DNA from: Acidimicrobiia bacterium
GTDB taxonomy: Bacteria; Actinomycetota; Acidimicrobiia; Acidimicrobiales; Bin134
Length of the DNA: 64,000 nt
Direction of reading: 5' to 3'
Assembly (NCBI GenBank): GCA_022826705.1
Contig: JAJDUJ010000018.1
Span: forward strand, 92,379 to 156,378
The position numbers were made by a program, and so were the translations under genes. Under the pieces are notes generated by a model that had not been told where the DNA came from, searched no databases, and saw only the letters and a list, made by a program, of their open reading frames with translations. Shown one piece after another: positions 18,191 to 33,428 of the stretch. The first letter of the stretch is position 1. Every line of letters starts with the position of its first letter.

Positions 18191-18264
18191 GGTTTGACCT
18201 TTCTCCACTCGGCGCTCACTCTATGTGGGCCCAGAGATGAAGATAGAAGCGTCGGAGGCAAGAC

Positions 18265-19104
18265 ATGAAGCTCGCGTTCAAGACCATGCCGCAGAACATC
18301 GAGTGGTCGGTCATGTTGGAGACATGGCAGGAGCTCGACGCTGATCCCCGGTACGAGTCGGCCTGGGTCTTCGATCACTTTTATCCCATCTACGGCGGCG
18401 AGGAGGGCCCGTGTTTGGAGGCATGGGTAACCCTGAGCGCGTTGGCCCAGGCCACCGAGCGCATTCGGATCGGGTCGATGGTCAATGCCGCCCCCTACCG
18501 GCATCCCGGGCTTTGCGCGGCCATGGCCTCGTCTCTGGATATCGTGTCGGGCGGCCGACTCGACCTGGGGCTCGGCGCTGGCTGGAACGAAGTAGAGGCC
18601 GGAGCCTACGGGATCAGCCTCGCCGAGCGCTTCGACCGGTTCGAGGAGTACCTGGAGTGCGTGGTCTCGCTGCTCAGCCAGCCGATCACCGACTTCCAGG
18701 GTCGCCACTACACCCTCACCAACGCCCGCAATGAGCCCAAGGGCCCCCAGCAGCCCACCCCGCCCATCGTGATCGGCGGCGCCGGCCCCCGCCGGACCAT
18801 GCCCTTGGTGGCGAAATGGGCCGACCACTGGAACTTCCCCGGCGGCGAAGTAGACAAGTTCTCCGAGGTCAAGGCCCGGCTGGTCGAGTGCTGCGAGGAG
18901 ATCGGCCGCGACCCCGCCGAGATCACCACCTCCACCCACCTCATCTACCAAGCCGAAGACCCCATCGACAAAGTCCTCACTCAAGCCGAGCAATACAAGG
19001 AAGCCGGCCTAGACCTAGCCATCCTCTACCCCTTCTCACCCGTCCCCCCCGCCTCCGTCCACGAAATGGCCGACGCTCTAGAACCCGTCGTCGATGCCGA
19101 CTAG
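18265..19104 (+). CDS. LLM-class (luciferase-like) oxidoreductase
   Basis: A 279-residue TIM-barrel flavin/F420 oxidoreductase. The N-terminal MKLAFKTMPQN, SAWVFDHFYPIYG, the strand RIRIGSMVNAAPYRHP, and SGGRLDLGLGAGWNEVEAGAYG are typical of F420-dependent members of the bacterial luciferase family (compare MSMEG-type oxidoreductases). IVIGGAGPRRTMPLVAKWADHWN is the conserved late strand. Cofactor choice (F420 versus FMN) is inferred from the actinobacterial setting. GAGGCAAG lies 7 nt before the ATG. Four genes of this superfamily occur in the window. Substrate unknown. Confidence 0.85.
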   Translation: MKLAFKTMPQNIEWSVMLETWQELDADPRYESAWVFDHFYPIYGGEEGPCLEAWVTLSALAQATERIRIGSMVNAAPYRHPGLCAAMASSLDIVSGGRLDLGLGAGWNEVEAGAYGISLAERFDRFEEYLECVVSLLSQPITDFQGRHYTLTNARNEPKGPQQPTPPIVIGGAGPRRTMPLVAKWADHWNFPGGEVDKFSEVKARLVECCEEIGRDPAEITTSTHLIYQAEDPIDKVLTQAEQYKEAGLDLAILYPFSPVPPASVHEMADALEPVVDAD

Positions 19105-19152
19105 GTGAATCTGGGCCCTGTCTTCAGGGGAGAAGCGGACTAGGTCTTCCGG

Positions 19153-19158
19153 TACAGT
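19153..19158 (+). promoter_or_regulatory. -10 box TACAGT for a leaderless transcript
   Basis: TACAGT ends 7 nt before the GTG at 19166. No ribosome-binding sequence is present. It would drive the dehydratase/acyl-CoA dehydrogenase operon. Confidence 0.5.
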
Positions 19159-19165
19159 CCGATGC

Positions 19166-20443
19166 GTGTCGGACGGGGGTGCGATAACCGACGAGGCTAT
19201 TGCTCGGTTGCGGGCTCGGATCGGGATTGCTCAGCCGCATCCTCAGCCTCCTTGGTATCGCGAGCCCAACACCGACGCGTTTCGCCAGGTGGCGGAGGCA
19301 TTCGGCGACGACAACCCGCTGTGGTGCGATCCCGATTACGGGGCGGGCACCGTGTGGGGAGGGCCGATCTCGTCGCCCAACATGAACGGGGGCGACACGC
19401 TCATTGGGGAGAACGAGGTTGAGAAGCTCGACCCCGACATCAAGGCGCTGCTGAAGGGTGATCCGCTCAAGGGGGCCCACGCCTATTACTCGGGCAGCTT
19501 TCGCGAGTGGTGGGCGCCGCTTCGCCCCGGGATGCGGGTCACCCGGCGGAATGCCCTGGTGGGCGTGCACGACAAGAAGAGCGAGTTTGCGGCCCGCACC
19601 GTGCACGAGTGGACGGCGGAGGTGTTCGCCACCCAGGGGGCGGTGCTGTCGGCCCAGTACCGGCTGATGATCCGAACTGACCGGGGGGCGGTGGAGCGCA
19701 AGGCCGACGAGGGCAGGGGCAAGTACGGCGACATCGAGATCGAGCCCTACACCGATGAGCAGATTGCCGAGATCACCGAGGCGGTTCGCGCCGAGCCGGA
19801 GCGCCGCCGGGGCGCTGAGCCGCGCTGGTGGGAAGACGTGGAGGAGGGCGACGAGCTGCCGCCGCTGGTCAAGGGGCCCATGCGGGTCACCGACATGGTG
19901 GTGTGGCACACCGGCATGGGCATGGGACTCTACGGGGTGAAGGCGCTGCGGCTGGGTGCGCAGCAGCGCCAGCGGGTGCCGGGGTTCTTCCGGCCTGACG
20001 ATCTCAACATTCCCGACGTGCAGCAGCGGGTCCACTGGGATCCCGAGTGGGCCCGGCGGGCAGGCAACCCGGCGATATACGACTACGGCCGTATGCGGGA
20101 AACATGGCTGGTGCACCTGTGTACCGACTGGATGGGCGACGACGCCTGGCTGGCCGCTCTCGACGTGGAGTTCCGCCGGTTCAACTATGTGGGCGACACC
20201 CACTGGATGCGGGGCACGGTGGCCCGCAAGTACCGCACCGACGAGGGCGCCCCCGCCGTCGACCTCGACATCTACGGCGAGAACCAGCGGGGCGAGACCA
20301 CTTGTCCCGGACACGCCACGATCCTGCTGCCGAGCCGGGAGCACGGACCGGTTAGGTTGCCCACCCCGCCGGGAGGGGCCACCACCGCGGCCGATGCGCT
20401 CGATGCGCTCGTCGAGCGGTTCGAGGCGATGTCGGCGGAATGA
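19166..20443 (+). CDS. MaoC/FAS1-like double-hotdog dehydratase
   Basis: A 425-residue protein with two hotdog-type halves. The N-terminal half (AFGDDNPLWCDPDYG, WGGPISSPN) resembles the FAS1-like dehydratase domain; the C-terminal half (VTDMVVWHTGMG, WVHLCTDWMG, FRRFNYVGDTHWMRGTV) is a second MaoC-like hotdog. Family members hydrate or dehydrate acyl-CoA substrates. The GTG start is supported by a -10 box 7 nt upstream. The stop overlaps the next ATG (ATGA), so it is translationally coupled to an acyl-CoA dehydrogenase, a combination that makes beta-oxidation of an unusual acyl-CoA likely. In the GTG-started frame a CDS-internal ATG is not needed. Confidence 0.8.
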   Translation: MSDGGAITDEAIARLRARIGIAQPHPQPPWYREPNTDAFRQVAEAFGDDNPLWCDPDYGAGTVWGGPISSPNMNGGDTLIGENEVEKLDPDIKALLKGDPLKGAHAYYSGSFREWWAPLRPGMRVTRRNALVGVHDKKSEFAARTVHEWTAEVFATQGAVLSAQYRLMIRTDRGAVERKADEGRGKYGDIEIEPYTDEQIAEITEAVRAEPERRRGAEPRWWEDVEEGDELPPLVKGPMRVTDMVVWHTGMGMGLYGVKALRLGAQQRQRVPGFFRPDDLNIPDVQQRVHWDPEWARRAGNPAIYDYGRMRETWLVHLCTDWMGDDAWLAALDVEFRRFNYVGDTHWMRGTVARKYRTDEGAPAVDLDIYGENQRGETTCPGHATILLPSREHGPVRLPTPPGGATTAADALDALVERFEAMSAE

Positions 20444-21714
20444 ACTCCGAGCGGCTGTCGATCGACGCATCGAGCAGCGACGAGGAGATCAGGGCCGCGG
20501 TCACGGAGTGGGTTGCCGAGCACGTCCCCCAGGCATGGCGCGACGCCGCGCCTCGGGGGCGCCGGGCCATCCGGGAGGTGAGGCCCCGATCCGACTACGA
20601 GGCCTGGTATCCAGTCTTTGCCGCATCCGGGCTGGCGGTGGCCACCTGGCCGGTCGAATACGGGGGTCTCGATCTCCCACCGACCAAGGCCCGAGTGGCC
20701 GAAACGGTGATAGCCCCGCTCAATCTGGGCCGGCTCAATCCCCTGGGCCTGCACAACACGGCCCCGGCGCTGTTCGCCCACGGCACAGAGGAGCAGCGTC
20801 TGCGCTTTCTTCCCCCCATGGTGGCCAACCAGGAGCGGTGGTGCCAGATGTTCAGTGAGCCCGGCGCGGGCTCCGATCTGGCATCGCTGGCCATGCGGGC
20901 TGAACGAGACGGAGACGAGTGGATTCTCACCGGACAGAAGGTGTGGAGCACCTGGGCCCACGAGTCGGAGTTCGCCATCTGCCTGGCCCGCACCGATCCC
21001 ACCGTTGCCAAGCGCCGGGGCATCACCTACTTCCTGGTGGATTTGTCGTCGCCGGGAGTCGAGGTGCGCCCCCTGCGCCACATCGGCGGCGAGATCGACT
21101 TCAACGAGGTATGGCTGGAGGATGTGCGGGTTCCCGACTTCCACCGGGTCGGCACTGCGGGCGACGGGTGGCGGGTGGCCGGGGCCACCCTGGCCGGTGA
21201 GCGCCAGATGGTGGCCGGGGCCGGCTCGGGCGGCGTCGACCGCATAGGCGGCGGGGGAGTCGACAGCCTCCTCAACCAGGCTCGTCAGGCTGGCGTCGGC
21301 CCGGTGGAGCGCGACCGGCTCATGCGGCTCTATTCCGAGGAGAAGATTCGGGCGTGGACCAACGAACGGGTTCGGGCCACGGTCAAGGCGGGAGGCACGC
21401 CGGGGCCTGCGGCCTCGATCGGCAAGGTGCAGCAAAGCCAGCTCAACCAGGCACTCCAACTGGCCGCTGTGGATCTGGCGGGTATGGGATCGGTGGCCTG
21501 GATACCCGGCGAGCCGTCCGAGGGGCGAGACTCCATCGAAGCTTGGGCCGCTCACATGCCCTATGTGGCAAAGGGCATGCTGCGAAGCCGGGCCAACACC
21601 ATCGAGGGGGGAACCACAGAGGTCAACAAGAACGTGATCGGTGAGAAGGTGCTCGGGCTACCCCGCGAGCCCGACCCCTACCACGACATAGCCTGGCAGG
21701 ACGTCCCCAGATAA
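20440..21714 (+). CDS. Acyl-CoA dehydrogenase family protein
   Basis: A 424-residue FAD enzyme. The FAD/substrate-contacting strand is MFSEPGAGSDLASL, followed by GQKVWSTWAHESEFAICLART, and the C-terminal helical domain contains the NTIEGGTTEVNKNVIGEKVLGLPR segment that binds FAD in the partner subunit. It oxidises an acyl-CoA at C2-C3. The alpha-domain catalytic Glu cannot be placed with certainty. The start overlaps the dehydratase stop (ATGA). Downstream, 24 bp away with a good ribosome-binding site, is an SDR gene, so the three are probably one unit. Confidence 0.88.
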   Translation: MNSERLSIDASSSDEEIRAAVTEWVAEHVPQAWRDAAPRGRRAIREVRPRSDYEAWYPVFAASGLAVATWPVEYGGLDLPPTKARVAETVIAPLNLGRLNPLGLHNTAPALFAHGTEEQRLRFLPPMVANQERWCQMFSEPGAGSDLASLAMRAERDGDEWILTGQKVWSTWAHESEFAICLARTDPTVAKRRGITYFLVDLSSPGVEVRPLRHIGGEIDFNEVWLEDVRVPDFHRVGTAGDGWRVAGATLAGERQMVAGAGSGGVDRIGGGGVDSLLNQARQAGVGPVERDRLMRLYSEEKIRAWTNERVRATVKAGGTPGPAASIGKVQQSQLNQALQLAAVDLAGMGSVAWIPGEPSEGRDSIEAWAAHMPYVAKGMLRSRANTIEGGTTEVNKNVIGEKVLGLPREPDPYHDIAWQDVPR

Positions 21715-21738
21715 CTGGGAAGAAAGGGAGCGACATCC

Positions 21739-22476
21739 ATGTTCAATCTTGACGGCAAAACCGCGCTGGTCACCGGCGCAGGGCAGAATGTCGGCGCAGG
21801 CGTGGCCCACACGCTGGCGTCTCAAGGGGCCCACGTGTTGGTCAACGACATCGTTGCCGACCGCGCCGGGGAAGTGGCGGACGCCATAGTGGGAGCAGGC
21901 CACTCGGCCGAGGCGCTGCCGTTCGACGTCACCGATGGCGAAGCGGTGCGGGCGGAAATTGTCGAGCGGCCCATCGACATTCTGGTCAATAACGCTGGCA
22001 ATGGGGGAGCCGAGATGATGCAAGTCAAGCCCTTCGCGGAGACTGAACCGGCAGATTGGATCGGGCCTCTTGCCGTCAACCTCGGCGGCGTCTTGAACTG
22101 CACCCACGCGGTGCTGCCCGGAATGATCGAGCGGGGCTGGGGCCGGGTCATCGCCGTCGTCTCCGGGGCCGGGACTGTCGGCGTGAACATCGGGGTGGCG
22201 GCCTACTCGGCAGGCAAGGGCGGCGCGGCCGGGCTGCTCCGCTCCGTGGCGCTGGAGGTCGCCCAGACGGGGGTGACGGTGAACTCCATCGCCCTTGGCC
22301 TGATGTCCAACACCGGCGACACTGGCGTCACCGATCAACTGGCCAGGGCCATTCCCACCCGGCGGTTGGGCACCCCCGAAGACGTCGCCGCGCTATGCGC
22401 CTACCTCGCCTCTGAGGAAGCCTCCTGGATGACCGCCCAAACCATCCCCCTCGCTGGCGGCTCCATCACCAGCTGA
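21739..22476 (+). CDS. Short-chain dehydrogenase/reductase
   Basis: A 245-residue classical SDR. The cofactor motif TGAGQNVGAG is at 14-23, NNAG is present (DILVNNAGN), and the catalytic set is Ser in VVSGAG with Tyr-x3-Lys in YSAGKGG. The C-terminus EEASWMTAQTIPLAGG is the usual SDR end. It probably oxidises a 3-hydroxyacyl-CoA or related alcohol in the same pathway as the dehydrogenase and dehydratase upstream. AGAAAGGGAG precedes the ATG. The 38 codons directly after its stop, in the same frame, are a RelE toxin remnant. Confidence 0.9.
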   Translation: MFNLDGKTALVTGAGQNVGAGVAHTLASQGAHVLVNDIVADRAGEVADAIVGAGHSAEALPFDVTDGEAVRAEIVERPIDILVNNAGNGGAEMMQVKPFAETEPADWIGPLAVNLGGVLNCTHAVLPGMIERGWGRVIAVVSGAGTVGVNIGVAAYSAGKGGAAGLLRSVALEVAQTGVTVNSIALGLMSNTGDTGVTDQLARAIPTRRLGTPEDVAALCAYLASEEASWMTAQTIPLAGGSITS

Positions 22477-22590
22477 CGCCGGATACGCGTCTGCGACAAT
22501 AAGGTCATATACGAAGTGCTCGACATTGAACTGGTAGTCCTCGTCATGAGGGAGGGCTTCTGCCAGCGCGGCGAATCGCAGTCCCAATGA
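22477..22590 (+). pseudogene. RelE/ParE-family toxin, C-terminal remnant
   Basis: Read in the frame that follows directly after the SDR stop, this stretch gives RRIRVCDNKVIYEVLD then IELVVLVMREG, the last strands of RelE toxins (usually YRIRVGDYRVIYEV...LVVLVVRVGHR). Everything before that is missing and the last catalytic-side residues (VGHR) are changed. Its terminal TGA overlaps the ATG of the next CoA-transferase. The same bases recur with similar spacing in the second RelE remnant at 25.3 kb. No antitoxin gene is beside it. I call it a fossil. Confidence 0.7.
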
Positions 22591-23789
22591 GGCAGCCTCT
22601 GGCCGGGATCAGGGTGCTCGATATGGGTACCCGTGTGGCGGCCCCGTTCTGCGCCGGGATCCTGGGCGAGCAGGGCGCGGAGGTGATCAAGATCGAGGAC
22701 CCCGATCGCGGCGACAAAACCCGTCTGAACGGGCCCTTCACCGTTGACGACGACGGCAACGCTTACTCCCTCTATTGGTCGGTGGAGGGCCGGGGGCGCA
22801 AGTCGGTGACCATCGACCTTCGAAGCTCCGAGGGCCAGGATTTGTTTCGGCGCCTGGCTTCGGTGTCCGACGTGGTGTGCGAGAACTTTCGGCCCGGCAC
22901 GTTGGAGCGCTGGAACATCGACCCGAGCCAGCTCGACCCGAGGCTGGTCACGGCCCGCATCAGCCTTTACGGCCAGCAGGGACCCAAATCCCTCTACAAC
23001 GGATTCGACCACAACGCCGTCGCGTTCGCCGGGCTGACGCACCTCACTGGACAACCCGACGGTCCCCCAATACGGCCCGCCCTTCCCGTTTCCGACTACT
23101 TGACCGGGGTGTTCGCAGCTCAGGCCGTGACGAGCCTGCTCTATGAGCGCGACGCCAAAGGCACAGGAACCGGTGGCGTGATAGACGCTTACCTCTACGG
23201 CTCGGTGCTGCGGATCATGGAGTGGACGATTGCCGCCTACGACCGTTTGGACTCGGTGCGCCCCCGTACCGGCAACCGATCAAACAACGCTGCGCCGCTC
23301 GACAACTTCCAGAGCCGCGACGACCGGTATGTATGCATCGTGGCCGTGCGCCAAGCAGTGTTCGAACGCCTCTGCGAGGCGATGGACCGGCCCGAGCTGC
23401 TGGCCGACGATCGCTTCGCCACACCAAAGGCGCGTCGTCTCAACCGGGATGTCGTCAACCAGACCGTCGCCGAGCGGGCGTCGGGCCTCGACGCGGCCAC
23501 CATCGAAGAGCGCTGCCTTGGCCACGGCGTGCCCGTCAGCGTCATCTACGACGTGGCGGATGTAGTTGTCGACGACCAGGTGCGGGCCCGCGGAGATGTG
23601 TGCACCGTTGACGATCCCGTCATCGGCCCGGTCCGCCAGCAGGCTCCTTACCCCCGCTTTGACGGCGACCCGCTTCCGGTTCCAGCGGGCGCCCCCCGAT
23701 TGGGCGAGCACACCGACGAGGTGCTCTCGGGCCTGCTGGAACTCTCAGAAGCCCAGATCGCTGGCCTGAGAGAGCGCAACGTAATCTGA
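22587..23789 (+). CDS. Family III CoA-transferase (CaiB/BaiF), Asp-containing
   Basis: A 400-residue member of the CaiB/BaiF/formyl-CoA transferase family. Signatures are RVLDMGTRVAAPFCAGILG, GAEVIKIEDP, and RKSVTIDLRS. Asp170 in PVSDYLTGVFAAQA aligns with the nucleophilic Asp of formyl-CoA transferase. It transfers CoA between carboxylic acids, activating a substrate without ATP. The ATG sits in an ATGA overlap with the RelE remnant stop and has no ribosome-binding sequence, so expression probably depends on read-through from upstream genes. Its nearest relative is the next gene. Confidence 0.88.
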   Translation: MRQPLAGIRVLDMGTRVAAPFCAGILGEQGAEVIKIEDPDRGDKTRLNGPFTVDDDGNAYSLYWSVEGRGRKSVTIDLRSSEGQDLFRRLASVSDVVCENFRPGTLERWNIDPSQLDPRLVTARISLYGQQGPKSLYNGFDHNAVAFAGLTHLTGQPDGPPIRPALPVSDYLTGVFAAQAVTSLLYERDAKGTGTGGVIDAYLYGSVLRIMEWTIAAYDRLDSVRPRTGNRSNNAAPLDNFQSRDDRYVCIVAVRQAVFERLCEAMDRPELLADDRFATPKARRLNRDVVNQTVAERASGLDAATIEERCLGHGVPVSVIYDVADVVVDDQVRARGDVCTVDDPVIGPVRQQAPYPRFDGDPLPVPAGAPRLGEHTDEVLSGLLELSEAQIAGLRERNVI

Positions 23790-23823
23790 GCATGGCGAAT
23801 ACAGCTGTGGATTGGAGTAGGTG

Positions 23824-25023
23824 ATGAGACGCCCCCTGGAAGGATTGCGAGTGATCGACCTCGGTTCCCGGGTGTCGGCGCCTTTCTGCGCGGCGATATT
23901 GGGCGAGCAGGGGGCCGAGATAATCAAGATCGAGGATCCCGGGCGAGGCGACAGCCTGCGCTATCTCGGCCCCTACGTCGACCACGACGATCAGCTGTAC
24001 TCCCTCTATTGGTCGGTGGAGGGCCGGGGCCGAAAGTCGGTGACCATCGACCTGCGCCGTCCGCAGGGCCAGGAGATCCTCCGTTCTCTGGCCGCCTCCA
24101 GCGACGTGTTGTGCGAGAGTTTCCGCCCCGGCACCCTCGAACGATGGAACATCGAACCGTCCCGCCTTCAGCCGAGCTTGGTTACGGCCCGCTTCAGCGT
24201 GTTCGGCCAGGACGGCCCCAAGTCGCTCCAGCCGGGTCTCAATGGAAATGCGCTGGCCTTCAGCGGGCTGATGCACCTCACCGGCGATCCCGATAGGCCT
24301 CCGGCAAGGCCGGGAGTGAACATCGCCGGCTACCTGACCGGCCTGTTCGCGGCTCAGGCGATCACCAGCCTGCTCTATGACCGCGACGCCCGAGGCACCG
24401 GAATCGGCGGGGTCATCGACGTGTACATGTACGGCTCGGTTCTGCGCATCATGGAGTGGACAATCGCCGCCTACGACCGGCTGGACTTGGTCCGCAACCG
24501 CTCAGGCAACAGCCTCGACAACGCGGCGCCGATCGGCAACTACGCCAGCCGCGACTCGCGCTACGTGTACATCGTGGGCGGCAGCCAGGTCTTTTTCGAA
24601 CGGCTGTGCCAGGCCATGAACCGCCCTGACCTGGTTGACGACGAGCGTTTCGCCAACCCTGCGGCCCGAGCCCGCAACCGTGCTGAGATCAACGCGATAG
24701 TTGCCCAATGGGTGTCAGAGGAAGACGCCGACGAAATAGAGGCCCGCTGCGTGGCCCGCGACGTTCCCGCCGGCAAGATCTACGACGTGGCCGACTTTGC
24801 CGCCGACGAGCACGTCCAGGCCAGAGGCGACATCTGCACCATTCAGGACCCGATCATCGGACCGGTCCGCCAACAAGCCCCCTTCCCCCGCATGCTCGGC
24901 GAGACCCCAGCCGCACCCACCGGCGCCCCCCGCCTCGGCGAGCACACCGACGAAGTGCTGTCGGGAGTGCTTGGCCTGTCCAGCACCGAGCTAGACGACC
25001 TCAGATCCGACGGCATCATCTGA
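23824..25023 (+). CDS. Family III CoA-transferase paralogue lacking the catalytic Asp
   Basis: A 399-residue close paralogue of the preceding gene, aligning end to end with long identical runs (YSLYWSVEGRGRKSVTIDLR is shared). ATG 23824 was chosen over GTG 23821 because MRRPLEGLRV then aligns with MRQPLAGIRV. The decisive difference is at position 169: NIAGYLTG here against VSDYLTG in the first copy, so the nucleophilic Asp is Gly (codon GGC). It may be a non-catalytic partner in a heteromer, or inactive. Heteromeric family III enzymes such as BbsEF are known. A 13-bp gap separates it from the antitoxin gene. Confidence 0.85.
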   Translation: MRRPLEGLRVIDLGSRVSAPFCAAILGEQGAEIIKIEDPGRGDSLRYLGPYVDHDDQLYSLYWSVEGRGRKSVTIDLRRPQGQEILRSLAASSDVLCESFRPGTLERWNIEPSRLQPSLVTARFSVFGQDGPKSLQPGLNGNALAFSGLMHLTGDPDRPPARPGVNIAGYLTGLFAAQAITSLLYDRDARGTGIGGVIDVYMYGSVLRIMEWTIAAYDRLDLVRNRSGNSLDNAAPIGNYASRDSRYVYIVGGSQVFFERLCQAMNRPDLVDDERFANPAARARNRAEINAIVAQWVSEEDADEIEARCVARDVPAGKIYDVADFAADEHVQARGDICTIQDPIIGPVRQQAPFPRMLGETPAAPTGAPRLGEHTDEVLSGVLGLSSTELDDLRSDGII

Positions 25024-25036
25024 CCAAGGAGCCCGC

Positions 25037-25258
25037 ATGAGCCAGATCACCGCCTGGGTTCCCGATGAGCTTGTTGAGGCGCTGGATGCGGTCGCCGAGA
25101 ACTTGAAGCGCAGCCGGGCCGACATCATTCGCCAAGCCTTGGAACACTATTTGGAAGATTACGACGATCTCGATGTAGCCCTTGAGCGCCTGCGAGATCC
25201 ATCCGACCCGGTACTCGATTGGGACCAGGTCAGACATGATCTGCTCTGCACGGATTGA
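25037..25258 (+). CDS. Ribbon-helix-helix antitoxin (orphan)
   Basis: A 73-residue protein beginning SQITAWVPDELVEALDAVAE, then KRSRADIIRQALEHYLED: a beta strand, two helices and the turn of a ribbon-helix-helix DNA-binding dimer, with an acidic C-terminal tail that would wrap a toxin. This is the RelB/ParD/CopG type. The cognate toxin position directly downstream holds only a decayed RelE gene, so the antitoxin now stands alone; it may still repress its own promoter or neutralise another toxin. It follows the CoA-transferase gene by 13 bp, with AAGGAG in between. Confidence 0.82.
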   Translation: MSQITAWVPDELVEALDAVAENLKRSRADIIRQALEHYLEDYDDLDVALERLRDPSDPVLDWDQVRHDLLCTD

Positions 25259-25304
25259 ACGCCGCTCAACCCGAGCATGAGAGATGGTGCAAACGCCGTA
25301 GTCG

Positions 25305-25453
25305 ATGGCCGCATACTCAGTTCGGACTAAGCGCTGCGAGACCGCCGCCTACGCGTTGGCGACTACAGGGTCATATGCGAAGTCCTCGACAACTAACTGG
25401 TGGTCCTCATTGTTCGAAAAGCCCAACGCCGCGAGACCCATCTCCCCCATTAG
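25305..25453 (+). pseudogene. RelE toxin with internal deletion and nonsense codon
   Basis: ATG 25305 starts MAAYSVRTKRC, a normal RelE N-terminus. The frame then shifts and the C-terminus appears directly as RDRRLRVGDYRVICEVLDN, stop, LVVLIVRKAQRRET, ending at 25453. About 50 central codons are missing, and the GAA expected after Asp-Asn/Ile (as in the 22.5-kb remnant) is TAA. It sits where the toxin partner of the upstream antitoxin should be. This is a dead toxin, not a short gene. Confidence 0.75.
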
Positions 25454-25787
25454 TGCTCGGCGTGGAGATTATTTCCGGCAATGCAGTTCGGAAGGTGATA
25501 CGGGAGGTGATCATGTGACGCCCCAGAACGCCCTGAGAGGCCTTTGTTAGTGCCATGTAAACGAAGCGACGACGAGGCTGCCTACCAACGCTCTGCCCCA
25601 TTCGACAGGAGGAGCGGGCTGATGGAGGGACGGGCCGACCAATTGGAGTAAGAATGGGCGAGCACACCTTGGAAGGACAGATCCTCTGTATCTGTGCCAC
25701 ACCCCTTGACAGGCGCAGGGACCAGATGGAACAGCCTTATTCACAGTCATTCCCGATTGGTTGTTTCTGGGGGTAAACTCCGACCAA
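25454..25787. other. Intergenic stretch with no recognised gene
   Basis: I see no convincing coding sequence here. The only notable item is TTCGACAG at 25601-25608, which could pair with CTGTCGAA at 25963-25970 beyond the hairpin run. Eight bases is too short to establish a retron-type a1/a2 pairing. Confidence 0.5.
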
Positions 25788-25933
25788 CTGGCAAGAGCCA
25801 GCTAGGCAATGCAACCGAAACGGCTGCCTCGCAGCTGATGGGGTGGGGTGACCCACCTTGGGCTCCGGTCCAGTTTTTCCCTGTCCGGACTGCGTTGCCG
25901 CTATGTGGTGGGGGTGTGCACACCCCCACCACA
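25788..25933 (+). ncRNA. Putative structured RNA upstream of reverse transcriptase
   Basis: Within 146 bases five hairpins follow one another: CTGGC-aaga-GCCAG (25788-25801), GCTGC-ctc-GCAGC (25823-25835), GGTGGG-gtga-CCCACC with a GNRA tetraloop (25842-25857), TCCGG..CAG / CTG.CCGGA (about 25864-25890), and a 15-bp perfect stem (25904-25933). The run ends 23 bp before the RT frame opens. Retrons and several defence-associated RTs keep a structured template RNA in exactly this place. The direction is assumed to be that of the RT. Inference from structure only. Confidence 0.55.
25904..25933. repeat. 30-bp perfect palindrome
   Basis: TGTGGTGGGGGTGTG is followed at once by its exact reverse complement, giving 15 bp of dyad symmetry with no mismatch. 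As RNA it forms a long stem with a minimal loop; no U-tract follows on the plus strand, so it is not a standard terminator. It could also be an extended operator. Confidence 0.9.
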
Positions 25934-25956
25934 CTTTCGTTGAGTGAGAATCTGAG

Positions 25957-27513
25957 TTGCTGCTGTCGAAGTACATAAGAAGAGAGGCCACTAGGCTGCT
26001 CAAGCGTCACGAGCGCAACATGCACACAGGTTTTCTGGAATGGGAGCGGCGCCAGAGGCGGTCCAAGACCCGCCTGCAGCGTCTCCAAACACAAGAGCCT
26101 TCATGGTGGAAACTTGATCCCGGTTTCAACCCATATCACGTTCGTCGCCAAGCGGATGTGATTGGGCATGCGATGTGGCGGGCATTGAAGGAGGGCCGCT
26201 ATCAACCTCGCTCACCTGTTGAAGTCGAGATAGACAAGCCTGGCGGTGGCGTGAGAGGACTGTCAGTGTTTCAGATTGCCGATAGTGCCTTGTCCCGATT
26301 CGCATTCGATCAGATTCTTGCCAAAAACACCTCACGACTAAGTGGGAGAGCCTACGCCTACAGGAAGGACTTGTCAGCTCATGATGCCATTCACTTTGTG
26401 CGCACAGAGTGGGCTGGCAAGACTAGAGTGTTCATCGCCGAATACGATTTCAAGTCATTCTTTTCGAATATCTCACATGCACATCTCCTCGAGATGATCA
26501 AGCAGCGAAGCTTGTTTCTCACGGATTTGGAAAAGCAGATCATGACTGCCTTTATGCGGTCGATTCCCATACCCGAGGAGTCGTATGATCCGATCCCATC
26601 AAATGGTGCATCCAAAGGTATTCCTCAGGGGACCAGCATAAGCCTTGTCTTGGCGAACCTTGCTGCTAGTCGTCTCGACCAAAGGCTGGAGAGAATTGGC
26701 GTAGGATTCGTTCGCTACGCAGATGATACCCTCATCTGGGGAGATTCCTACGGCAGCATTTGTGAGGCTGTGGAAATACTCACTGAAGAGGCCGCTCTAA
26801 TGGGTGTGGAATTTAATAGAGAGAAATCGTCCGGAATAAGCTTGTTAGTCCCGCGGTCTTGGACACCCGACGGGGAGATCAGGACCAAAAGGAGGGTCCG
26901 CTTTCTTGGCTATGACTTGGGGCTCGAACATTGCGAGCTATCTAATGACGCTGAAGTCAGGATCAAGCAAAAGTGTCTCAAGTTGATCTATAACAATCTC
27001 CTGAGAGAACCACTCAATAGAAATCAAAACCCAGAGAGAATTACTGAACACCTTGATAGCGATTACATAGCGTTGCTAGCACAACTCCGAAGATACCTCT
27101 ATGGCGACCTGTCTGAGAAGAAAGTCAAGAGCTTCCAACGCAGCGAGGCTCCCTACCAGCATTTCACAGGCGTCATGTCATGCTATCCCTTACTGGACGA
27201 CTCAAACGCACTCGGACGATTGGATGGCTGGCTATTGCATAACATCCATCAAGCAATCGCAAAGCGGACAGCTCTGCTGCATGCTAGCGGGATACTTCCT
27301 TTTATCTCGGAACCAATTCCTCATGGCCGGTCGCCGGCTCAGCTTCTGAATCTTGAAAATCCAACGAGCAAATCTTCAGGCCATGCTATCGACGTAAGTG
27401 TGCCCAGCGTTCGCCGAATCGCATCTGTCATACGACGAGCTGCGGAAAAGTATGGTGCTGGATCCGTTGGCAACGAGCCAGAAATCGGTCTGTCAAATCC
27501 TTCGCGGTACTAG
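25957..27513 (+). CDS. Reverse transcriptase, probable defence-associated type
   Basis: A 518-residue RT. The polymerase motifs are present: [13 protein letters not shown] with Asp163 (motif A), [15 protein letters not shown] 221-235 (motif B), and [10 protein letters not shown] with YADD 254-257 (motif C), then FNREKSSGI and [10 protein letters not shown] for the thumb-side motifs. No maturase, HNH or retron-type VTG motif is seen, and about 190 extra C-terminal residues follow. This points to the abortive-infection/unknown-group RTs that act in phage defence rather than to group II introns. The frame opens with TTG 25957; ATG 26020 (residue 22) is an alternative start. Base composition is visibly lower in GC than in the flanking genes. 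A hairpin RNA lies upstream and a HEPN-like gene downstream. Confidence 0.88.
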
Positions 27514-27531
27514 TCGCTAAGTTGCGTGCCA

Positions 27532-27554
27532 ATTGTGTCACATCGGGTCACAAT
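27532..27554. promoter_or_regulatory. Inverted repeat ATTGTG...CACAAT
   Basis: A 6-bp perfect inverted repeat with an 11-bp spacer, containing GTCACA twice, lies between the RT stop and the HEPN-like gene. It could be an operator for the second gene or a small RNA stem. Confidence 0.35.
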
Positions 27555-27657
27555 GGACTACACAGATTGGATAGACGGTTAGTGCAAGCGGAATGAAGTG
27601 AATCTATTTGTACTTCTGCTGAAGCTGTGCCGCATCAACTCGATTGGGGAGAACGCC

Positions 27658-28443
27658 ATGCCAACGGTCGCCGAAGCTCTTGCACTCTCGCTTCCAGCTA
27701 AGTGGCAATTCGGTTTGAAGAAATTTGGGAGTGCTGTGCGTGCACTTGAGACATGGTTTGAGGGGCATGGAGAGACTGTGATGGCAGTCCTCGCTAACGC
27801 TACTGTACCTCTGGAGGAGCTGAGGACTCATCAGCTCGCTAGCTTCGTCCAGCTCGATCATCGACTCGTGCAAGTCTTGGTAGAGCGGGGCTGGTACCCC
27901 GACCCACGCATGGCTCCAATCCAGCTGGCCCTGCTCTTCTCATACAGCGCCAGCGAGCCTGACGCGGTTGAAGAGATCATGAAGAACGTGTTTCGAGAGC
28001 GTCTCGACGAGATTGAGGCGGAGTTGGTAGCCGCTCATCCAACACGTACAGCGATCATTCAAGATGCGTTCTACGCACATCGGGAGTCCAGGTACAACCT
28101 CTCAATTCCTGTCCTGCTGGCTCAAGCCGACGGTATCTGGCTTGAGCGGGTCAAGCGCAACTTGTTCAGTGGTGGCGCTGGAAGGGCTATTCAAGAGTTG
28201 GCCGACCAGATTGAGGATGCAAACTCTCGTGAATTGGTGTTTGCCCTCAGCAGCCCTGATTGGCCGCTAGCAGCCTCGGAAGGAGAAAGGCCCGAGAGCT
28301 TCAGCGGGCTTAATCGACATCAGGTTCTTCACGGCGAAGTGACAAACTACGGCATCGAAGAGAACAGCCTCAGGGCCGTCTCTTTCCTGAACTACTGCGC
28401 CTTCATACTTCCTGCACAAGAAGAGGAGGTTACCGCTTCCTGA
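27658..28443 (+). CDS. HEPN-like protein (R-x4-H motif), RT partner candidate
   Basis: A 261-residue protein started at ATG 27658, which has GGGGAG 6 nt upstream; a GTG 20 codons earlier lacks one. The C-terminal segment GLNRHQVLHGEVTNYG carries R220-x4-H225, the catalytic pattern of HEPN ribonucleases, followed by the helix SLRAVSFLNYCAF. The middle is helical, with RYNLSIPVLLAQADGIW before it. HEPN proteins act as RNases in toxin-antitoxin and abortive-infection systems. I do not know the exact family. It lies 144 bp after the RT on the same strand and meets the XamI-like gene tail to tail with a 1-bp gap. A two-gene RT-HEPN unit is inferred. Confidence 0.72.
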   Translation: MPTVAEALALSLPAKWQFGLKKFGSAVRALETWFEGHGETVMAVLANATVPLEELRTHQLASFVQLDHRLVQVLVERGWYPDPRMAPIQLALLFSYSASEPDAVEEIMKNVFRERLDEIEAELVAAHPTRTAIIQDAFYAHRESRYNLSIPVLLAQADGIWLERVKRNLFSGGAGRAIQELADQIEDANSRELVFALSSPDWPLAASEGERPESFSGLNRHQVLHGEVTNYGIEENSLRAVSFLNYCAFILPAQEEEVTAS

Positions 28444-28444
28444 A

Positions 28445-29398
28445 TCAACTACTGCTCTCTCTTGCTGAGCGGATGAAGTTCGCCAGGGCATTGAGGTCAT
28501 GGGCCCAGAAGATCGTGAGGTGCTGGGCCTGGGCCTGTTCGAGGTTTCGGGTTTTGAAGATGCCAGAAAGGACGGCGCTGGGGACGGTGGCTCCGCTACC
28601 AAATTCTTCGATCCAGGCTGCGGCCTTCGCGGCAGCGTCGTTGTTGAGTCGTTTCACCGAGTTCGTGGACGAGTTCGATACCTTGCACTCGATGGGCATG
28701 CACCGTCCGTCGTGAAGCCTGACAATGAGATCCGCTTTGCGCTGTCCGAACGGTGCTTCTCCGCAGAACTCGCCTGGTGCCGGGGCGTCCAGGAAGCCGG
28801 GTGAAACAGTCCGAGGTTCAACCTCGACCATGCCCGATCCCCGCAGGGAGGCCTTGACCAACTCTTCTTGCTCTTTGGACTGCATACGTCGAACTGTTTC
28901 CACCCGCCGAGTGGCCATAAGGGCCGCTGTTGCTATTGCAGCGGCAGTCCTTTCGTTGTCTTCGGCTCCGCGCCTTTGGCTGATCCACGGGAATCGCTTG
29001 GGGTCAAGGCCCTGGGCGATAGTTCCCACCACCCGGTCCGAAGCGTCAAGGTCATCAAGCAGTACGCCAGCAGCAAGCGAAGTATCGGCAAGCTCGGCCA
29101 GATCATCGGCTGAAATAGGAGGCCCGACAACGTAGCGGAGGGCTTCCAATAATTCGGGGTTGCCGAGCACCTCCAAGAGTCCAGGGTCGATTGACGTAAC
29201 GCTCGCCCGTGGTTGTAGTTGCGAGAGGTCGTCAGTCTTGTCCAGGAGCTCGTTGATGTATTCGAGACACTGGGCAAACGTCTCGGCGTAGACCCCCTGT
29301 GACTCGTTCAGCCTCTGGGAGCGGAAGATCTGCCTGGCGAGTTCTCGTTGCTCGTCGAATTCCTCGCTGGTCCAACGAGGCGGGTCTGTGAGGTTCAC
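28445..29398 (-). CDS. XamI-family type II restriction endonuclease
   Basis: A 317-residue protein resembling the XamI restriction endonuclease family. The core has Asp223 in RKADLIVRL and Glu237-Cys-Lys239 in MPIECKVSNSS, the D...ExK pattern of PD-(D/E)XK nucleases, and ends with GIFKTRNLEQAQ and TIFWAHDLNALANF, segments I recall as typical of this family. The prototype XamI recognises GTCGAC (SalI isoschizomer); the site here is not proven. GTCGAC does occur in this window (for example 1115-1120), so host DNA would need methylation. The GTG start overlaps the methylase stop (GTGA). Confidence 0.82.
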   Translation of the reverse strand: MNLTDPPRWTSEEFDEQRELARQIFRSQRLNESQGVYAETFAQCLEYINELLDKTDDLSQLQPRASVTSIDPGLLEVLGNPELLEALRYVVGPPISADDLAELADTSLAAGVLLDDLDASDRVVGTIAQGLDPKRFPWISQRRGAEDNERTAAAIATAALMATRRVETVRRMQSKEQEELVKASLRGSGMVEVEPRTVSPGFLDAPAPGEFCGEAPFGQRKADLIVRLHDGRCMPIECKVSNSSTNSVKRLNNDAAAKAAAWIEEFGSGATVPSAVLSGIFKTRNLEQAQAQHLTIFWAHDLNALANFIRSARESSS

Positions 29399-31050
29399 GA
29401 TGACATCTCAGCTAGCAAAGCGGGATTGGGAACCGGGATGCGTTCCATCTCCGAAGGCTCGAACTTGGTGAGTCCGCCGGCGTAGGTGCGTCCCTGTGCC
29501 ACAGAAGCGCTGGACCTCAGAGAGGCGGCCAGGGTGTCCAAAGCGTCATCGGACAGTGGGTCTCGGGGGTAGATCCCGTGGGCGACGTTAATGTGGCCCG
29601 CCCCGGCAAGGTTGCGGACGAACGCCGGGGGGCGTCTGGCCATGTAGGTAGCCAAGATCGGTGCGGGAGACCGCAGACCCACGGACCACCAGGGATTCCG
29701 GTGGCGGGCGACATACGACGAATGAGCACCGTTGCGCTCTGCGTTTCGCAAGAATCGTTTCACGAGCGCCCGGTCTTCCTCATCGAGTTCGCTGAGATCA
29801 GCAGGCAGGTCGATGACTGCCCGAAGGCTGCGAAGGCTCGACAGCACTCCGTCGTCGGCATCGAAGAGTTCCCGGGCCTTGGTAACCGATGGGAATAGCG
29901 TCCTTGTCGGCAGTTCGGGGTCGTTGGCGGTGGTGACCCAGGTTGCGTTGGCCCCGGTGACCGCGCCCCTGTGTACCCGGCAGAGTTCACCTAGCTCGAC
30001 AAATCCGTCCGGGGGCGAAGTTGCAGGGGACAGCAGCGGCGACCACCGCTTCTCTTGCATGAGGCGCTGTTTGCTCACTCGGCGTCCCTTGGAGAGATCG
30101 GCAAGGTCCCTGGCCTTCGCGACCCGGCGCATCTTGACAGAGCGGGCCTCCGAACCGATCTGAAAGCAGGTCACCGACGCGGTAGTAACCGCATCCTCAA
30201 AAGGCAATACCTCCGGAGCAAGGATGTGGACTGACTCACCGCCCAAACCGTCGGTGAGCATCCCGCGCAGCAACTTCCCGTAATTGACGTCCAACCACTC
30301 CGCAGAGGTGATGAAAGCTCCAATGTCTCCCGGCTTGGCTGCGAGAAGCGTCGCCAAGAAGAAGTGGACATGAAGCCCTGCAAGCGCGCTGACCGGCAGA
30401 TCTCGGCTCTTGGCGGTAGCTGTCAGCCACCGCTTCCACCGAGGCTCAATTTGATGGTGGCGCACATAGGGGGGATTGCCCACAAACGCCGTCACCCCAT
30501 CGCAACTACCAAAATCGGCCTCTCGGTAGTCGCCCACCATCACGGTAGATCGATCATCAAACCCCGCCGCGGTCAGGTTGGCCCGACACAACAGAGCAGC
30601 CAAAGGATCCAGTTCAACAGCGACCAACGAAGCATCAGGAAAAACTCGCCCTGCTTGGAGCAGAAAGCGCCCCGAACCTGCGCCAGGATCGACAACCCGA
30701 GCAGGTTGCTCCTTGGCCGCGATCCAGCCCACCATCGCCTCCACGATCCCCGGAGGCGTATACACCGCCCCAAATGGTCGCCTCTGCTTCGGGGACCGCA
30801 ACCGCACAAACGCATCCCCTAGGGGGTCGCCCCCTTTAAGGATCTTCGAAGCAAACTCGGCTGTGTCCGAAGCAGGTATCTCTGCTGCGGAATTAACAGC
30901 TTCGGACTCCGCGACGGTGAGACTGTCGAGAGCGCCATTACTGACAATCGCCCATGCAACAGCTGCCAGTTCTTGCTCCGACTCCAGCAGCGCTGCTGCT
31001 TTTGACGTGTCGTCGTGGTCGATCAGCAACATCTGCTTGAAGTCTGACAT
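29395..31050 (-). CDS. DNA adenine N6-methyltransferase of the XamI-type RM system
   Basis: A 551-residue class I methyltransferase. The SAM-binding motif is VVDPGAGSGRFL (121-127 core) after FGAVYTPPGIVEAMVGW, and the catalytic motif is NPPY at 192-195 (GNPPYVRHHQIEPRWK), as in gamma-type N6-adenine methylases. The C-terminal half (VHRGAVTGANATW, FVRNLAGAGHINVAHGIYPR) is the target-recognition region. ATG 31050 was chosen because GGGAGAAG lies before it; the longer frame to 31095 has no such site. It protects host sites from the coupled endonuclease, whose start it overlaps by four bases. Confidence 0.87.
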   Translation of the reverse strand: MSDFKQMLLIDHDDTSKAAALLESEQELAAVAWAIVSNGALDSLTVAESEAVNSAAEIPASDTAEFASKILKGGDPLGDAFVRLRSPKQRRPFGAVYTPPGIVEAMVGWIAAKEQPARVVDPGAGSGRFLLQAGRVFPDASLVAVELDPLAALLCRANLTAAGFDDRSTVMVGDYREADFGSCDGVTAFVGNPPYVRHHQIEPRWKRWLTATAKSRDLPVSALAGLHVHFFLATLLAAKPGDIGAFITSAEWLDVNYGKLLRGMLTDGLGGESVHILAPEVLPFEDAVTTASVTCFQIGSEARSVKMRRVAKARDLADLSKGRRVSKQRLMQEKRWSPLLSPATSPPDGFVELGELCRVHRGAVTGANATWVTTANDPELPTRTLFPSVTKARELFDADDGVLSSLRSLRAVIDLPADLSELDEEDRALVKRFLRNAERNGAHSSYVARHRNPWWSVGLRSPAPILATYMARRPPAFVRNLAGAGHINVAHGIYPRDPLSDDALDTLAASLRSSASVAQGRTYAGGLTKFEPSEMERIPVPNPALLAEMSS

Positions 31051-31324
31051 AGGACTTCTCCCGATCAGAGGAAATGAAAAACAGGTCTCCATCATCCAGA
31101 CAAGAGTGACAACGAGGCAGAACGAAGGTCCTCACGCTTACATTGGCTCTCGGGTTCGGACTTGATGATGCAGCCACCTTCGGGCCACTGGTAGGACGCT
31201 CCAGTGATCTTTCCTGCTCCCGTGGATTTTGGCCCGCCGATGAGAATGATGAGTAGCGATGGGCAGATAGCGCCTCATTAGGGTCGAGTGTGCTGCAAAC
31301 AGCTATGGGCTGAAGGGAGCCGCC
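31051..31324. other. Intergenic region upstream of the methylase
   Basis: This region must hold the promoter of the RM operon and of the secreted protein. On the minus strand a short open stretch reads GPKSTGAGKITG and SYQWPEGGC, which could be a gene fragment, but it has no good start and I recognise no family. Confidence 0.4.
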
Positions 31325-31849
31325 ATGCGCGGAATGTCGAAAATCGGGGCAACAATTGTCGCCCTGCTGATCATCTGTGGAGTGATTGCCGCGGTGTCAG
31401 TCGCGTCAGCCCACGACACAGACGGTGAAATTGCTTCCAGAGATGCCCTGATCAGTGCACAAGAGAATTTGCTGAACACCTACAGGTGCTTGTTCTCCAT
31501 CGACATGCAACTCGTACCGGGCGGCTGCGACCCCGACCGAGAGCTTGGACTGGTACCAACCCTCGGCGTGTCCGGCACTGGCTCCGGCGTCCGCACCGCC
31601 AGCCTCGAAGCTGGCCGCTACCAAGTGGACATCGACATCGAGGGGCCGAGAGGCCACATCAGCGTTTGGGCAAACGACAGCGCCCGATGCGAATTGCTGG
31701 CAAACGAGACTGTCGAAGGTTCATGGTCTGGATCGGTCGTGCTGATTGTCGGGGCTGACTATCTTGCTGACTGCGAACCCGGTGACCTGTTGATCGAAGT
31801 GGATGCCCCAGCCCAAGCCGCCTGGGAGATCATCTTCACTAACCGATAG
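31325..31849 (+). CDS. Secreted or membrane-anchored hypothetical protein
   Basis: A 174-residue protein with an N-terminal signal or anchor helix (KIGATIVALLIICGVIAAVSVASA) and a likely cleavage after SVASA. The mature part has two Cys pairs (YRCLF, GGCDP, ARCEL, ADCEP) that could form disulfides, and a strand-rich composition (AGRYQVDIDIEG, HISVWANDSARC). No known domain is recognised. AGGGAG lies 7 nt before the ATG. It sits between the RM pair and a DNA-repair-like gene; a defence role is not supported by anything in its sequence. Confidence 0.65.
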   Translation: MRGMSKIGATIVALLIICGVIAAVSVASAHDTDGEIASRDALISAQENLLNTYRCLFSIDMQLVPGGCDPDRELGLVPTLGVSGTGSGVRTASLEAGRYQVDIDIEGPRGHISVWANDSARCELLANETVEGSWSGSVVLIVGADYLADCEPGDLLIEVDAPAQAAWEIIFTNR

Positions 31850-31989
31850 CAGATCCTGCCAATTTACTGATCAGCTTATGAAGAAGTGGATTTAGGAATG
31901 GTCTCGCAGGGGGGATTGCGGAGCGGACTCCGATTCCTGCACCGGCCTCTGGGAGCAGGCTGAGGGCGACCATCTCCCCCTGATCGGCC

Positions 31990-31995
31990 TAGTCT
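31990..31995 (+). promoter_or_regulatory. -10 box TAGTCT for a leaderless transcript
   Basis: TAGTCT ends 7 nt before the GTG at 32003 and no ribosome-binding sequence lies between. The same CCTAGTCT string precedes the D-aminoacylase start at 54639. Confidence 0.5.
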
Positions 31996-32002
31996 CCCGG
32001 AC

Positions 32003-32755
32003 GTGGAACAGGCGGCATCGTTGGGCTCAGTTTGCGATCCACACTGCGGGCGGAGCGCCTATGACCACATCGACTTCACGGTGAGGGGGCAGTCTTGGGA
32101 TGTCGAGTGGGGCAACTATGAGGTGTTCGGCACTCCGGCGTTTTGGGTCAACCGCACGGCGATGGAGCGCTACGAGGAGCGTCTCGCAGAAAGGGCATCC
32201 GGCGGCCACATCGAGTCGGTGGTCGTGTTCGGCTTGCTTGGGGGTTCGGGGATATCCGCCGAGGTGGCTCGCGCAGCCCAAAGCGTCGTGCTTGATCTCC
32301 TTGCTGAGAACTCTGGGGCGACAGCAGGGGAAATAGAAGAGCGGCTGCAGAAGCCGCTGCCCGGCGGTTTGGGCCGCTACAGGTTCCCGCGGCAGCGGTC
32401 GCAGCGCATCGTCGCAGCCTTGGCCCAGCTCCGCTCAGAACCCCCTCCCGAGGACCCGCTCGATTTGAGGCAGTACCTCAGAAGGCTGCGGGGAGTCGGC
32501 CCGCAGACCTCCGCCCACATCGTCCGCAACCTGACCGGCAGCGCCGAGGTGGCGATTGTGGGCATTTGGCTAGTGCGAGCCTTGACCTGGGCGGGCATAT
32601 TCAAGCCGCAGTGGCGCGTCCAACGACACTACGACAGATTTGAACAAACATTCCTCCAGTACGCGGCGCACGGCAACGTCCAGCCCGGGGCGCTGGACCT
32701 GTGCATCTGGGAGAAAGCCCGAAGCGTGGAACCCTCGTACTTCAGCCTGGGATAG
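32003..32755 (+). CDS. HhH-GPD DNA glycosylase-like protein, Asp replaced
   Basis: A 250-residue protein whose C-terminal half has a helix-hairpin-helix, LRRLRGVGPQTSAHIVRN (G164-V-G166), as in the EndoIII/OGG1/AlkA superfamily. Where the catalytic Asp normally follows (pattern V-D-x-x), this protein reads AIVGIWLVRA, with Gly187. It may therefore be a non-catalytic DNA-binding member, or use a lysine as in OGG-type enzymes that I cannot place. The first 60 residues (CDPHCGRSAYDHIDF) are not recognisable. A leaderless -10 box supports the GTG start. It is separated from its neighbours by about 150 and 60 bp. Confidence 0.68.
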   Translation: MEQAASLGSVCDPHCGRSAYDHIDFTVRGQSWDVEWGNYEVFGTPAFWVNRTAMERYEERLAERASGGHIESVVVFGLLGGSGISAEVARAAQSVVLDLLAENSGATAGEIEERLQKPLPGGLGRYRFPRQRSQRIVAALAQLRSEPPPEDPLDLRQYLRRLRGVGPQTSAHIVRNLTGSAEVAIVGIWLVRALTWAGIFKPQWRVQRHYDRFEQTFLQYAAHGNVQPGALDLCIWEKARSVEPSYFSLG

Positions 32756-32815
32756 TGCGTGTTTCGCGAAATCGCCGGCTAGGCCGCGCCCCAGGCACCA
32801 CAGGACAGGGATCCT

Positions 32816-33428
32816 TCAGCACGTTTTGGGGTTCACCGGGGAGGGCGTTGCGGGGTTCTTCGCGCAGGAAGGTCTGTTGGCGGAGTTCCAGTGGGTGGGG
32901 GTGTCGTATATGCCTGGGGACTGGGTTAGGTCTTGGAGCCATTCGACGATGTAGCCCTCCAGAACCGGGGGGAAGTTGCATCGGTAGTTGCGCAAGCCTG
33001 AGAAGAGGTCCTGTTCGTCGTAGAACATGATGTGGGCGGGGATGTCGATGGCGCTCTTTCCGAAGTAGGCGAAATGTTCTGAGATGAGAACCCGGGGCGG
33101 ATTCGTGTCTGTCAAGACATGTTTTGGATCAGGAGTGCCGTCTTCGTGACTGTGGTAGCTGTGTTCTTGAATCCAGTCGTGGGAAATGGGGTGCCGATGG
33201 TAGGCGTTGTCGCCGCATCGCGACTCTTCGGCACCGTTTGGGTCCGGCTTCTTCTGCTGGAAGCGTTGGTCGGTCCAGTAGTCGTCGAACCACATGGCCT
33301 CTTCGACTCTCATGGCATAGATGAGCTTGCCAGTTTGATTGTTCTCTACGGCCCCGACACCGAGAATCCAGTCGCCTGTTTTCGCGCGCTTGCGAATCTT
33401 TGCTTTGCAGGTGGCGAGGGTGCACCAG
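32816..33428 (-). pseudogene. Nmad2-like protein gene truncated at tRNA-Leu
   Basis: Read from the tRNA boundary, the frame gives WCTLATCKAKIRKRAKTG, then DWILGVGAVENNQTGKLIYA, then MRVEEAMWFDDYW, the shape of the nucleotide-modification-associated domain 2 family (...CTLAxCKPxIRxxAxxGDWI). No start codon exists upstream: the frame meets a TAG inside the tRNA gene. The longest ATG-started piece begins at 33313 (165 residues) and lacks the core N-terminus. The C-terminal part (HFAYFGKSAIDIP) looks intact. I infer loss of the 5' end when DNA integrated or recombined at the tRNA 3' end. Confidence 0.7.

Follow-up and report, generated by a model that had tools for sequence, protein, structure and literature searches.

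Which kind of system is formed when a reverse transcriptase (RT) gene is preceded by a run of RNA hairpins and followed by the gene of a possible toxin? This question is raised by positions 25788 to 28443 of a 64,000-nucleotide stretch of DNA from an Acidimicrobiia bacterium (contig JAJDUJ010000018.1), which is referred to as the window. In the original prediction, the RT, the RNA and a HEPN-like protein were joined into one defence system, and no described system was known for this combination. The RT with its upstream RNA is, in fact, a described system, DRT9, and this part of the proposal stands; the HEPN-like partner probably does not, as no link to RTs was found in the comparisons made. 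What appears to be new, judged from sequence, is a variant: the serine tail of a clade of DRT9-family RTs. The enzyme probably copies a U-tract of its conserved upstream RNA to poly-deoxyadenosine (poly-dA), likely beginning on the tail serine S513 in place of tyrosines, with the HEPN-like gene as a separate gene.

The RT gene (25957..27513, plus strand) encodes 518 residues from a TTG start; the aligned residue is also the first one in the proteins of several relatives, which supports this start. The YADD catalytic motif is intact, as predicted, at residues 254-257 (26716..26727, plus strand). In an alignment of 112 rows (the window and 111 of 119 others, from the best 120 of 1168 matches), D256 and D257 are invariant, and Y254 and A255 are at least 90% conserved. 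The profile PDLC03766 (Drt9) matches residues 3-507 with 537 bits, and lower scores were obtained with a general RT profile (98.6 bits), a Cas1-RT model (80.8 bits) and Drt3a (73 bits). The architecture is that of an RT-only protein with an N-terminal helical extension and YADD, and the fold matches the DRT9 structure over the whole chain, with 32% identity in the structural alignment. By RT profile, fold and RNA, the window RT is a member of the DRT9 (UG28) family, which is defined by RT phylogeny and not by tail tyrosines. Other classes were tried and rejected. For the group II introns, the maturase model TIGR04416 gave 122.1 bits against a cut-off of 300. The retron St85 model gave 44.3 bits, below its cut-off of 235, and DRT10 (UG17) and the other UG classes were set aside with 71.8 bits for the UG17/DRT10 profile versus 537 for Drt9.

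The known DRT9 systems, SenDRT9 and the E. coli DRT9 (PMC12483538, PMC12489045; PDB 9nlv, 9ioa, 9vma), have in common with the window system the RT-only protein, the N-terminal helix, YADD and a multi-hairpin RNA with a U-tract. SenDRT9 likely primes poly-dA on the C-terminal residues Y496/Y498, in the tail peptide IMNPQSLNYDYE (PMC12483538, PMC12489045), and both tyrosines are described as conserved in DRT9 (PMC12489045). The template is U4 in a loop of the RNA, and, according to the discoverers, DRT9 enzymes are the sole polymerases known to make DNA homopolymers from an RNA template (PMC12483538). Where these systems have Y496/Y498, a G-x-S-N tail is found across a whole clade that includes the window.

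Tail positions were counted from G500, which is invariant in 112/112 rows. The serine clade comprises the window and 30 relatives, with serine at +13 (30 rows) or +12 (one row), and tyrosine at +8 to +14 occurs in 0/31 of its rows, so the window system is called a DRT9 variant. Among the other 81 rows, the first tyrosine is found at +10 (49), +11 (12) or +12 (18), giving 79, of which 50 carry a second tyrosine at +12 to +14. Two tyrosine-side RTs, P0205 and P0231, lack both the tail tyrosine and the serine motif and perhaps carry altered tails; these were counted in this tally and excluded only from the count of changes described below. The frame in the serine clade is mostly P-x-x-G-x-S-N-P: serine is present in 31/31 rows, proline at -5 in 31/31 and glycine at -2 in 30/31, with positions -1, -3 and -4 variable. 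Two serine-clade proteins stop exactly at the motif serine, and several tyrosine-type proteins stop at a tyrosine. The rows omitted from the alignment were P0148 (altered tail), the short P0153, P0155, P0185 and P0192, and P0206, P0208 and P0228; all four short rows have an x-S-N tail by eye. In the window, the tail that replaces the tyrosine tail spans residues 504-518 (27466..27510, plus strand), and the codon of Ser513, the predicted priming residue, is located at 27493..27495 on the same strand.

In a tree made without the tail columns, the 31 serine rows form one side of a branch with a support of 99 in the Shimodaira-Hasegawa-like approximate likelihood ratio test (SH-aLRT). Tail type maps on this tree as one change, a count as low as which was reached in 0/500 shuffles, and the direction of the change between serine and tyrosine depends on the root. 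A specificity scan returned 15 positions that separate the serine clade at the thresholds used, including W152, T310 and P508, none of which accounts for the tail. Carriers of RT relatives were found in 3 of 395 genomes sampled from the class (E 1e-30), 1 of 396 from the phylum (the window's own) and 3 of 397 from the order, which indicates that the serine clade is rare in named genomes. No relative was found in the viral contigs scanned with the RT, either as a single protein or as an alignment. Two further DRT9 loci were noted. In the genome of the closest serine-type DRT9, there is also a tyrosine-tailed one (G017:C20, L124), whose tail reads ..DPYRD by eye; its match starts only at query residue 135, near a contig end. 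On the Thioclava plasmid NZ_CP149928.1 (L133, 5487-6122), a DRT9-like RT is followed by an overlapping SLATT gene, a published occasional companion of DRT9.

The second component is the predicted DRT9-type non-coding RNA (ncRNA) region directly upstream of the RT gene (25784..25956, plus strand), with a conserved block from 25788. Three serine-clade loci are readable as DNA: the window, G017:C34 from the same genus (RT identity 83%) and G358:C49 from the same class (66%); the other members of the clade come from a protein collection. The run of hairpins noted earlier was borne out, and its start at 25788 is also the start of similarity to the closest relative. The fold of 25760-25960 has an energy of -92.4 kcal/mol versus -75.1 +/- 4.7 for 200 shuffles (z -3.7), better than all 200. 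Between the window and G017, 151/175 aligned columns of the block are identical, versus only 102/217 in the preceding 200 nt. Across the three loci, six helices with 42 pairs were aligned; 123/124 cells are paired, and 9 pairs are changed on both sides. The observed pairing, double changes and covariation score were attained by 0/500 shuffles, and sliding the partners by 1-3 columns left 35-51% paired with zero double changes. The upstream block, read as DNA, is thus predicted to be transcribed as a structured RNA that keeps its pairing by compensatory change. At the gathering threshold, the sole Rfam match in the whole window is a tRNA.

All elements of this RNA lie on the plus strand. Hairpin SL1 (25788..25801; CUGGC AAGA GCCAG) is followed by a long-range stem, in which 25805-25812 pairs with 25892-25899 (25805..25899) around SL2-SL4 and the U-tract; in G358, 2/8 of its pairs are double-changed and one is broken. 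SL2 (25821..25837) and SL3 (25842..25857) each have one pair with a change on both sides. SL4 (25860..25871) reads GGGC-UCCG-GUCC in the window and GAGC-UUCG-GCUC in G017, with 2/4 pairs double-changed. A 13-bp hairpin (25904..25933) directly precedes the RT gene and has 3/13 pairs double-changed. Inside the long-range stem lies a U5 tract (25874..25878), the predicted poly-dA template by analogy with SenDRT9 (PMC12483538), whose template loop it would match by resemblance. The tract is U5 in the window and G017 and U4 in G358, with CCCUG next in each, and its context CAG(U/C)UUUUCCCUG is kept in 3/3 loci. A site resembling an intrinsic terminator was scored at 25858-25878, across SL4 and the U5 tract, and the presumed template therefore stands at a terminator position; attenuation of the RT gene by this site is possible.

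Taken by analogy with the published SenDRT9 work, the RNA would scaffold the RT in a multimeric complex, and after phage infection the short U-tract would be copied over and over into poly-dA. The hydroxyl of S513 may start the chain in place of the priming tyrosines, a step that is proposed here, and the poly-dA would remain attached to the RT and lead to abortive infection, again as in SenDRT9. The multimer, the poly-dA synthesis and the defence function of the window system are thus carried over from SenDRT9, and serine priming is suggested because serine is present in 31/31 rows of the clade and tyrosine is absent at priming distance. On balance, it is somewhat more likely than not that primer chemistry switched a single time in a DRT9 lineage, between tyrosine and serine, and that long poly-dA is extended from the tail serine, with the folded RNA and the U-tract kept. 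Several points weigh against this. The tree was quickly built, has SH-aLRT as its sole support and contains long end branches, one of which (P0152) lies inside the serine clade. The ncRNA comparison covers three loci, two of them close, and a fifth measure, further pair types, was attained by 52/500 shuffles. S513 was not placed at the active site: the AlphaFold2 model is disordered in the tail, with a predicted local distance difference test score below 50 at residues 509-518, and the structural superposition ends at model residue 510 (chain residue 496), so that S513 lies a few residues beyond. In addition, the window protein and its two nearest relatives end in tyrosine (Y518 in the window, at +18), and a tyrosine is found somewhere after G500 in 6/31 serine-clade rows.

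The last of these points leads to an unlikely but still credible alternative, in which the DRT9 RT and its ncRNA use another primer: the terminal Y518, another hydroxyl at the active site, or, as in DRT2, the 3' end of the RNA. The window protein terminates in Y518, and for it alone a tyrosine primer is conceivable; the double tyrosine mutant of SenDRT9 retains residual poly-dA, for which its authors consider that other hydroxyl residues are perhaps used (PMC12483538). However, 25/31 clade rows have no tyrosine at all after G500, and the distribution of serine and of tyrosine at +8 to +14 given above points to the tail serine. An improbable alternative is that the serine clade makes a short tandem repeat in a telomerase-like manner, as DRT10 does, with the flanking CCCUG copied too. 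The conservation around the U-tract in all three loci would fit such a product, and DRT10 combines a serine primer with an ncRNA resembling that of DRT9 (PMC12632851). However, no internal repeat able to realign was seen by eye, the RT scores far higher with the Drt9 profile than with that of UG17/DRT10, and G923, a tyrosine-type DRT9 from the same order, has a similar GUUUCCCU with only three U in a similar-looking place (by eye).

The extent of the system can be read from the closest relative. When 24000-33000 of the window was compared with 14 kb of G017, one similar DNA block was found (25788-27529, identity 80.5%), from the first base of SL1 to 16 nt beyond the RT stop codon. The earliest start of the HEPN-like gene (27598) lies 69 nt past the end of this block; therefore, the unit common to the window and G017 consists of the RNA and the RT. 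Co-occurrence of RT and HEPN-like genes in other genomes was not borne out either, as no linkage to RTs was found in the co-occurrence and locus comparisons run. The HEPN-like gene (27658..28443, plus strand) encodes 261 residues, or 281 from the GTG at 27598. The R-x4-H motif pointed out earlier holds up well: R220 and H225 are invariant in 41/41 aligned family members, and among 120 their conservation is still 90% or more; the motif is therefore no chance match. The motif is shared with HEPN domains (R-x4-6-H; Csm6, TM0613), but searches with the protein gave no match to a named family in Pfam, NCBIfam or PADLOC (up to E 1) or to a solved chain (up to E 10). Pfam searches with the 41 members gave scattered weak matches only, and the family profile met helical bundles and apolipoproteins among solved sequences, on the variable N-terminal part.

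The HEPN-like protein has 182 homologues at E 0.001. In genome contigs, none was found with the single protein as the query, and 70 loci were found with the alignment. The family, which is marked by the motifs P-V-L-L-A-Q-A-D-G and L-N-R-H-Q-V-L-H-G...Y-G-T, is present in chromosomes of many bacterial groups, viral contigs and plasmids. Among the neighbours of 97 family loci (three repeat others), no constant partner was found, the widest recurrent cluster covering 9 loci. The family (the window and 94 related loci) is a candidate for defence or toxin proteins that act without a partner, and the window gene most likely shares only the defence island with the RT system, as a gene of its own and not as a component. 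A single three-part system, with the HEPN-like protein as a toxic RNase that RT and RNA hold back until a phage attacks, is very improbable.

The island itself is indicated by the low GC at the locus (0.50, versus 0.64-0.70 upstream at 18000-25000 and 0.57-0.64 downstream) and by a type II restriction-modification pair after the HEPN-like gene. This pair, a XamI-type endonuclease (Pfam E 9.3e-42) and an N6-adenine methylase, is located at 28445-31095 on the minus strand, convergent with the HEPN-like gene. Upstream, a RelB/RHH-type antitoxin gene (25037-25258, plus strand) scores 44.9 bits against a RelB-like cut-off of 50; no intact toxin gene was recognised after it, and the next 300 nt resemble a decayed partner by eye.

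Priming on tail residues has been described in other defence RTs. Eco3DRT10 primes on the C-terminal S456, the first serine-primed RT to its authors' knowledge, and Eco1DRT10 likely on Y444 (PMC12632851). In common with DRT10, the window system is predicted to have C-terminal protein priming and an ncRNA template in a loop, whereas DRT10 makes tandem repeats and requires a SLATT protein (PMC12632851), and the window RT belongs to another RT family. No Pfam match to a SLATT model was found in the four neighbouring window proteins scanned. DRT1 is likewise serine-primed, on S402, but it combines template-free synthesis with nitrilase activity and is of another class than the window RT (PMC13275509). 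A DRT9 paper mentions that Abi RTs prime on tyrosine and serine (PMC12489045), and the myRT paper separates a class UG28b that is associated with VirE_N. No serine tail in DRT9 was found in the paper passages covered on the DRT9 RT and ncRNA, on serine in DRT9 and on UG28.

For defence loci in general, a caution follows: a toxin-like gene is not necessarily the effector of the defence RT beside it. If the proposed change is true, the exchange between serine and tyrosine reported in DRT10 occurred in DRT9 too. With serine in the place of tyrosine and the RNA and enzyme otherwise kept, the clade would be a natural experiment on what these enzymes require of a primer.
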